64,000 nucleotides of DNA from an uncultured Opitutia bacterium. Lineage in GTDB: Bacteria > Verrucomicrobiota > Verrucomicrobiia > Opitutales > Opitutaceae. Positions within the stretch are counted from its first letter, which is position 1. Each line of letters starts with the position of its first letter. The translations under genes were made by a program, and so were the position numbers. The stretch covers positions 62,001 to 126,000 of the forward strand of contig CAIPAH010000008.1 in the NCBI GenBank assembly GCA_903862955.1. Reading direction: 5' to 3'. Positions 7,512-8,149 of the stretch are shown piece after piece. The notes beneath the pieces are model-generated. The model had not been told where the DNA came from and searched no databases. It saw only the letters and a list, made by a program, of their open reading frames with translations.

Positions 7512-7605
7512 GGAGGGGTGGCTGAGTGGTCGATAGCGGCGCTTTGCTAAAGCGTTATAGGGGTTTAAATCCCTATCGGGGGTTCGAATCCCCCCCCCTC
7601 CGCCA
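7512..7605 (+). tRNA. tRNA-Ser (anticodon GCT), CCA encoded
   Basis: Acceptor stem GGAGGGG (7512-7518) pairs with CCCCTCC (7595-7601), followed by discriminator G and an encoded CCA (7603-7605). The anticodon loop TTGCTAA holds GCT at 7546-7548, reading AGC/AGT serine codons. The long variable arm ATAGGG...CCCTAT (about 7556-7576) is the hallmark of a class II serine tRNA, and the T arm is GGGGG-TTCGAAT-CCCCC. The 94-base length fits. The 3' GCCA also forms the first bases of the palindrome described next. Confidence 0.97.
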
Positions 7606-7641
7606 TCCTTCGCCAAGGCTACGGATGGCACGGCCATCCTT
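7602..7641. repeat. Palindrome 1 at the tRNA 3' end, with a GCCATCCTT direct repeat
   Basis: GCCATCC (7602-7608), 14-base loop, GGATGGC (7623-7629): a 7-bp stem whose left arm starts with the tRNA discriminator and CCA. GCCATCCTT at 7602-7610 is repeated directly at 7633-7641. CATCCTTCGCC (7604-7614) also has an 11-base inverted copy, GGCGAAGGATG, at 7681-7691. Confidence 0.8.
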
Positions 7642-7690
7642 ACGGTGTACGGGCTCCAAGGATGTCGGTGGGGAAACAGAGGCGAAGGAT

Positions 7691-7722
7691 GCCCTCCGAA
7701 GCTTCAGCGCAGGAGGGCTGGC
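7691..7722. repeat. Palindrome 2, with tRNA-Ser end-like sequences
   Basis: GCCCTCC (7691-7697), 14-base loop, GGAGGGC (7712-7718): the same 7-14-7 geometry as palindrome 1. The left arm contains CCCTCCG (7692-7698), as in the 3' acceptor strand of the tRNA. The right part GGAGGGCTGGC (7712-7722) matches the tRNA 5' end GGAGGGGTGGC at 10 of 11 bases. It therefore looks like a 3' acceptor strand followed by a 5' acceptor strand. Confidence 0.75.
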
Positions 7723-7760
7723 ACGGGGGCTACACCAGTTTCGAGATTTTTACGGTGCTC

Positions 7761-7786
7761 AGATGGCCTCGACGGGAGGACCATCT
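7761..7786 (+). promoter_or_regulatory. Hairpin just upstream of the GIY-YIG start
   Basis: AGATGGCCTC pairs with GGAGGACCATCT through a 10-bp stem with one bulged A and a short GACG-type loop. It ends 11 bases before the ATG at 7798 and hides the only purine-rich stretch (GGGAGGA, 7774-7780) that could serve as a ribosome-binding site. A translational control role is inferred only. Confidence 0.5.
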
Positions 7787-7797
7787 GGGACTCAGGC

Positions 7798-8040
7798 ATG
7801 CATTACGTGTACCTCATTGAGAGCGGGCTCGTCTCCGATCACCGCTACGCCGGTTACACCGATGACCTCAGGAAGCGGCTTGCCGAGCATAACACCGGCA
7901 AAAACGTCAGCACCGCCGACTTCAAGCCGTGGCGTCTCCGCACCTACCTCGCGTTCACAAGTAAACGCCAAGCCCTCGCTTTCGAACGCTATCTGAAATC
8001 CGGTTCTGGCCACGCCTTCTCGAACAAGCGCCTCTGGTAA
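7798..8040 (+). CDS. Small GIY-YIG-domain nuclease-like protein (URI-type)
   Basis: An 80-residue single-domain protein beginning MHYVYLIES, followed by the second motif RYAGYTDDLRKRLAEHN. These correspond to the GIY and YIG elements, with the catalytic Arg of RKRLAEHN, and a later conserved Glu in ALAFERYLKSGSG. The start at 7798 gives the usual compact URI-type domain; a frame open from 7645 would translate the palindromic leader and is rejected. Such stand-alone proteins are widespread and mostly uncharacterised. Its position behind a tRNA with palindromes suggests a mobile cassette. Confidence 0.85.
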   Translation: MHYVYLIESGLVSDHRYAGYTDDLRKRLAEHNTGKNVSTADFKPWRLRTYLAFTSKRQALAFERYLKSGSGHAFSNKRLW

Positions 8041-8079
8041 TTTCCACGGAGGTTGACGTGCCTCCCGTCCGTCCTACGC

Positions 8080-8109
8080 AAAAAACCCGCGCCGTTACCG
8101 GCGCGGGTT
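8080..8109 (-). terminator. Intrinsic terminator for metK-ahcY
   Basis: AACCCGCGCCG (8084-8094), loop TTAC, CGGCGCGGGTT (8099-8109): an 11-bp GC-rich stem. Read on the minus strand it is followed by a T run (complement of A at 8080-8085). It lies about 40 bases beyond the ahcY stop. Confidence 0.85.
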
Positions 8110-8149
8110 TGAAGTTGGCAGAGGCAGCCAGAGCCGCCGGCCCGGAGGC

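Follow-up and report, generated by a model that had tools for sequence, protein, structure and literature searches.

tRNA genes are the best-known docking sites of bacterial islands, which enter them by means of integrases. Ssn of Neisseria is reportedly a GIY-YIG site-specific single-strand nuclease with a partner genomic repeat; we know of no association of Ssn with tRNA ends. SegB, a free-standing GIY-YIG homing endonuclease of T-even phages, homes by cleaving tRNA-containing recipient DNA, and its homologues often lie less than 1 kb from tRNAs (PMC13096335). SegB and the GTAG/CGTC REP repeats are the nearest precedents; REPs of the CGTC type were reported to occur without a dedicated transposase (PMC3733652). 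The locus described here, a tRNA-Ser(GCU) gene followed by paired hairpins and a small GIY-YIG gene, carries an element that works like a homing or a REPIN element, and neither definition fits it fully.

Layout of the locus behind tRNA-Ser(GCU)

The window (the whole 64-kb stretch of DNA analysed) belongs to an Opitutae (Verrucomicrobiota) genome, and a contig carrying the identical locus (L033) comes from an uncultured Opitutae MAG. It contains the following features at this locus:

7512..7605, + strand: tRNA-Ser(GCU), the host gene (ARAGORN; Rfam RF00005, 58.5 bits)
7603-7605, + strand: encoded CCA of tRNA-Ser(GCU), common to the tRNA and the left end of the element
7606..8040, + strand: the entire 435-bp element, starting at the first base past CCA and ending with the GIY-YIG stop codon, as delimited by empty sites of congeners (left) and, by analogy, by ectopic copies (right)
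7603..7614, + strand: arm X (CCA TC CTTCGCC; CCATCCTTCGCC), whose two post-CCA bases vary between elements and are matched in the other arms
7617..7629, + strand: right arm of hairpin 1 (GGCTACGGATGGC), pairing with arm X (covariation in 39/42)
7633..7641, + strand: additional copy of GCCATCCTT, for which the right arm of hairpin 1 is a possible pairing partner
7681..7691, + strand: arm X' (GGCGAAGGATG), a perfect complement of 7604-7614 (covariation in 47/49)
7691..7718, + strand: hairpin 2 (GCCCTCCGAAGCTTCAGCGCAGGAGGGC), the same whatever the tRNA and kin to dispersed genomic copies
7760..7787, + strand: third hairpin (CAGATGG..CCATCTG), real but unconserved
7798..8040, + strand: GIY-YIG nuclease gene, 80 aa, Slx1/UPF0213-like (PF01541, E = 1.5e-13)
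8083..8110, no strand assigned: GC-rich hairpin (AAACCCGCG..CGCGGGTTT), the host terminator between tRNA-Ser and the convergent ahcY

Reading 3' from the tRNA, the order is therefore arm X, its hairpin 1 partner, a spacer, X', hairpin 2 and the GIY-YIG gene. The first-pass annotation had described two palindromes with 7-bp stems and 14-base loops (7602-7629, at the tRNA-Ser end, and 7691-7718), an 11-nt inverted pair (7604-7614/7681-7691) and a GCCATCCTT direct repeat (7602, 7633). All of these are exact, and the 80-residue GIY-YIG gene was confirmed as well. Perfect 7-14-7 palindromes number only 10 in the 64-kb window; four of them start within 7602-8083, the last being the terminator. In folding of the DNA by itself, X is paired with X' and hairpin 2 is formed (z = -2.46).

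The third hairpin, which had been counted as part of the cassette, does exist exactly at 7760-7787 but is probably not a core part of the element, since the ATG directly follows hairpin 2 in two related loci (L034 and L036). Hairpin 2 had also been read as a permuted mimic of the tRNA ends. This does not hold: identical words stand behind Ala, Leu, Val and other tRNAs, and their invariance behind unrelated tRNAs argues against mimicry.

No known RNA family scored above the Rfam gathering score for the unit, the tRNA alone doing so. No promoter-like site was found between tRNA-Ser and the GIY-YIG gene, which, for a non-model phylum, is weak negative evidence. The tRNA promoter probably drives the gene.

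Occupied and empty tRNA ends

The source genome contains 42 matches to 7600-7797, the longest of the others lying directly behind tRNA-Ser(GGA), tRNA-Tyr and tRNA-Leu(CAG). We read the 3' flanks of the tRNAs of this genome (42 by Rfam). Units of the CTTCGC type, or a near variant, adjoin Ser-GCU, Ser-GGA, Tyr, Leu-CAG, Ala-CGC and Arg-UCU, while two-hairpin units with other arms and a second hairpin resembling hairpin 2 adjoin Phe, Arg-CCG, Leu-UAA and Leu-GAG, most of the latter group beginning at nucleotide 1 past CCA. Hairpin units thus adjoin about 10 tRNAs, of which about nine, all those besides tRNA-Ser(GCU), have hairpins only. The window locus is the only gene-bearing copy in this genome; the other GIY-YIG match, with a much longer frame (590 aa), is probably UvrC.

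The dispersed short copies in the source genome are mostly of the hairpin 2 type. Some repeats of this type (GCCCTCCTTCGCCAAGGCTACGGAGGGC) apparently lie within protein-coding genes (e.g., L007, L008, and L020) and resemble the intragenic REPs reported for Opitutus terrae.

The orthologous tRNA-Ser(GCU) site was compared in 12 genomes of the genus. The full unit is present in the window and in G153. Hairpins without the gene were found in four genomes (G059, G085, G154, and G141), short-arm and likewise gene-less versions in G151 and behind a second tRNA-Ser(GCU) gene of G153, and nothing of the kind in G124, G015, G107, and G152. In G124 and G015 CCA leads straight into the terminator, followed by the convergent ahcY; a terminator-like hairpin adjoining CCA directly is the arrangement of the empty sites. 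The left junction is clean at CCA. The same three states (full, hairpin-only and empty) were found in congeners at tRNA-Ser(GGA). As in homing elements, occurrence at a conserved site is patchy and empty alleles are present.

Relatives were found well beyond the genus. The 21 loci of one contig scan come from Opitutae and other Verrucomicrobiota, from Lentisphaerota and Alphaproteobacteria, and from a single Patescibacteria record; at the family level, the protein was detected in 60 of 150 genomes, with up to five copies each. Among 108 distinct (non-identical) GIY-YIG homologue loci, 77 have a same-strand tRNA at most 360 nt upstream, with a median tRNA-to-gene gap of 143 nt; the chance expectation, roughly estimated from about 45 tRNAs in 3.6 Mb, is well under 1%. 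These 77 tRNAs cover 14 amino-acid identities: Ser (22), Leu (11), Ala (10), Val (8), Arg, Pro, Met and Gln (4 each), and also Tyr, Asp, Gly, His, Lys and Glu. The palindrome motif starts at nucleotide 1 after CCA, i.e., at zero spacing, in 69 of the 77. A complete tmRNA gene lies upstream in six of the remaining loci, and in four more (L038, L086, L100, and L103) the unit is preceded by just a tRNA 3' half, comprising T arm, acceptor strand and CCA, perhaps because islands integrated into the tRNA displaced these units.

We also scanned 288 Verrucomicrobiota genomes with the pattern GGTTCRANTCC-N11-CCA-NN-CTTCGC. This signature, tRNA-CCA|NNCTTCGC, occurs 204 times in 102 genomes against about 2.5 occurrences expected by a simple estimate, and the reversed control pattern has zero occurrences in the same set. 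GIY-YIG homologues are present in 115 of the 288 genomes, with up to seven copies per genome. Both hairpin and gene were found in 79 genomes, the gene only in 36, the hairpin only in 23 and neither in 150. The odds ratio of this co-occurrence is 14 (Fisher p = 2.5e-22), a value that is partly circular, as the same loci enter both sets, and not corrected for phylogeny. Conservation at the window locus alone, with no copies elsewhere, is thereby excluded. The initial proposal of a small mobile, homing-like cassette aimed at the end of a tRNA gene is supported by its presence behind many other tRNAs and by tRNA-Ser loci that lack it and have a clean junction.

Several loci are arranged differently. 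In L247 (G385:C31) a tmRNA gene is followed by two different GIY-YIG units in tandem. In L248 (G364:C32) and L251 (G373:C72) tRNA-Ser(CGA) is split at the anticodon by a small GIY-YIG gene of a different kind, the order being a duplicated tRNA 5' half, a GCCCC palindrome, the gene and the complete tRNA, with two tandem copies in L248. Divergent GIY-YIG homologues in L169, L170, and L172 directly precede reading frames that look like the C-terminal part of a tyrosine recombinase or integron integrase, as though they had landed in recombinase/integrase genes.

Ends, arms and nuclease of the element

The ends of the element can be judged from copies located at different sites. Two copies in G242, 1.15 kb apart and about 97% identical, share a segment that begins at CTCCACCA and ends exactly at the GIY-YIG stop codon; CTCCACCA is the tRNA-Ala end in one copy and belongs to the intergenic CCTCCACCA in the other. 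G207 has two tandem copies in which the stop codon is joined to the hairpin. Homology is lost near the stop codon between copies at Tyr and Gly, Leu and Pro, and Ala and Val. Two copies in one Kiloniellales genome, at Ser-GCU and Ser-GGA, are 93% identical, run about 65 nt past the stop codon up to CACCGCCAC and then pass into unrelated flanks. Ectopic copies share only about 350-440 bp. By analogy with these copies, the window element would span 7606-8040 and have its right end at the stop codon. No general excess of tRNA 3'-end duplication over swapped tRNAs was found at the right junction, with such duplications in a few loci only (e.g., L104 and L110).

Another insert lies between the tRNA and the GIY-YIG unit behind tRNA-Gln/tRNA-Pro in L098, L101, and L142. 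It ends in a 19-nt stretch that duplicates the tRNA 3' end perfectly, which suggests a second kind of insert that targets tRNA ends and duplicates its target.

The pair of bases that follows CCA forms a tag, observed as TC, GC, TG, GT, AC, CG, CC, GG, and TA. X' matches it in 47 of 49 loci (mean 13 and maximum 22 in shuffles) and the hairpin 1 arm in 39 of 42 (mean 14, maximum 22). Among related GIY-YIG genes the palindromes are therefore kept with compensatory change, contrary to the concern raised at the outset that they might not be conserved. Since the tag differs between elements behind the same tRNA-Ser end, it belongs to the element and not to the target. The possibility that arm X is the native tRNA flank copied at insertion is not supported, as one and the same tRNA-Ser end is followed by different tags and the flanks of empty sites are of other sequence. 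On the nuclease tree, which has few columns and weak support, the tag is partly clustered (27 changes against 38 in shuffles); this is compatible with co-evolution of tag and enzyme and also with relatedness alone. On the same weakly supported tree tRNA identity requires 38 changes (minimum 14, shuffled mean 52), suggesting that host tRNAs were switched often, although not at random.

The protein belongs to the GIY-YIG nuclease superfamily by its PF01541 domain and its catalytic Tyr, Tyr, Arg and Glu. Among 99 homologues Y5 and Y17 are each conserved in 95%, R27 in 100% and E63 in 98%, and with H31 included all the catalytic-type residues are within 95-100%. The AlphaFold2 model (pLDDT 93) is closest to the solved folds of the UPF0213 protein BH0048 and Slx1, with TM-scores to the query of 0.67-0.76 for Slx1 and E-values of only 2e-3 to 9e-3. 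Enzymes of the Slx1 type act on branched DNA, an activity in keeping with recognition of hairpins or cruciforms by the GIY-YIG protein. dN/dS is 0.02-0.27 in most informative pairs and 0.037 for L258/L259, two copies in one genome; it is 1.5 for L039/L045, and the closest pairs carry too few changes to judge. These substitution ratios demonstrate purifying selection on the nuclease gene. An origin from phages or plasmids is ruled against, as the protein was not found in phage and plasmid collections or in PHROGs, with matches in two viral contigs only.

Competing explanations and known systems

Overall, we regard the unit as a compact mobile element that specifically targets tRNA and tmRNA genes at their 3' ends, with the GIY-YIG nuclease as its putative mobiliser, and assign this reading a probability of about 0.7. 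At the level of genome comparison, many tRNA and tmRNA 3' ends are recurrently and patchily occupied at zero spacing, and the copies testify to movement between different tRNAs, defined ends and hairpin-only derivatives. Mobility and target specificity are well supported by these comparisons, and the nuclease is the probable mobiliser. The enzyme would recognise the hairpins, the T-arm..CCA sequence shared by tRNA and tmRNA genes, or both, and cut, after which homing-like repair would copy or join the unit beside CCA. The tRNA would be left intact, because the first bases of the unit are themselves the encoded CCA. Spread would occur mostly between alleles of one tRNA, with occasional jumps to other tRNAs via the common TTCRANTCC..CCA segment, and loss of the gene would leave hairpin-only scars.

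The foremost alternative, though an unlikely one, is a miniature element of the REPIN kind that a Y1 tyrosine transposase (RAYT) would move, with GIY-YIG as a passenger gene or one acquired later. Copies with hairpins alone are more numerous than those with the GIY-YIG gene, and in 23 of 288 genomes hairpins occur with no detected GIY-YIG gene, so the gene could be a passenger. The hairpin pairs resemble REPs/REPINs in being paired palindromes dispersed in many copies, with hairpin 2 copies even inside some genes, and GTAG REPs were reported to abound in Opitutus terrae (PMC3733652). Y1_Tnp is widespread in the phylum, with 205/288 genomes carrying it. However, no Y1 (HUH) transposase gene was found with these palindromes on its flanks: both Y1_Tnp loci of the source genome lack the hairpins, and no Y1_Tnp at E<=1e-5 is present in G242, the genome with five GIY-YIG genes and the 97% identical copies. 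Y1_Tnp occurs in 88 of the 102 hairpin genomes and is absent from 14, with an odds ratio of about 3.7 against about 14 for GIY-YIG. To our knowledge, RAYT elements are not tRNA-specific either.

It is somewhat less probable that the unit is domesticated and serves the host, the hairpins acting in tRNA 3' processing or termination and the enzyme on the tRNA or its trailer. The position of a hairpin directly after CCA, the gene on the same strand, strong purifying selection and near absence from phages and plasmids would all suit such a role. It accords poorly with patchy occupancy within genus and family, with the presence of the unit at many unrelated tRNAs while most tRNAs lack it, and with off-tRNA copies and up to seven copies per genome. 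Cargo of integrase-type islands is a far weaker explanation: tRNA and tmRNA 3' ends are classic integrase sites and four copies follow tRNA 3' halves only, but the 435-bp unit has no recombinase or integrase, ectopic copies share so little, the junction is at CCA itself and not within the tRNA, general att-type duplications of the 3' end are lacking and the tandem copies consist of the small unit alone.

If the mobile-element reading is true, a 435-bp unit with an 80-residue nuclease can dock at the CCA of nearly any tRNA without harm to the tRNA. Such a unit would be very small for an autonomous mobile element and would offer a compact model of a structure-selective nuclease driving site-specific insertion. 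It would also account for the hairpins and the small GIY-YIG genes found downstream of tRNAs in many genomes, and might serve as a small site-specific tool. At roughly 440 bases the unit appears to be among the smallest self-contained mobile elements. We put at about even odds that it represents a class of autonomous mobile elements not described before. Members of this class would measure about 350-450 bp, have a single-domain Slx1-like GIY-YIG nuclease in the role of the transposase, and be aimed at the universal tRNA/tmRNA CCA end by hairpin ends with a co-varying two-base tag, in Verrucomicrobiota, Lentisphaerota and Alphaproteobacteria. No description of a CCA-palindrome/GIY-YIG unit was found in the literature searched, which is no proof of novelty.

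Small UPF0213/Slx1-type GIY-YIG proteins (PDB 1ZG2; Slx1 6SEH, 6SEI, 7CQ2) share the fold and catalytic residues but are products of cellular genes, whereas the protein described here is part of a palindrome-tRNA unit. Ssn is reportedly similar in being a small GIY-YIG nuclease partnered with a genomic repeat. As with SegB, a GIY-YIG nuclease gene lies beside tRNA genes; SegB, in contrast, is phage-encoded, lies in tRNA clusters and has no palindromic unit fused to a CCA end, while our protein has no match in the phage collection or PHROGs. The element resembles REP/REPIN systems with RAYT (PMC3733652, PMC3116915) in its short paired palindromes with matching arms and in combining an autonomous, nuclease-encoding copy with many gene-less ones, but it differs from them in being specific for tRNA/tmRNA 3' ends at zero spacing and in having a GIY-YIG nuclease in place of a HUH tyrosine transposase.
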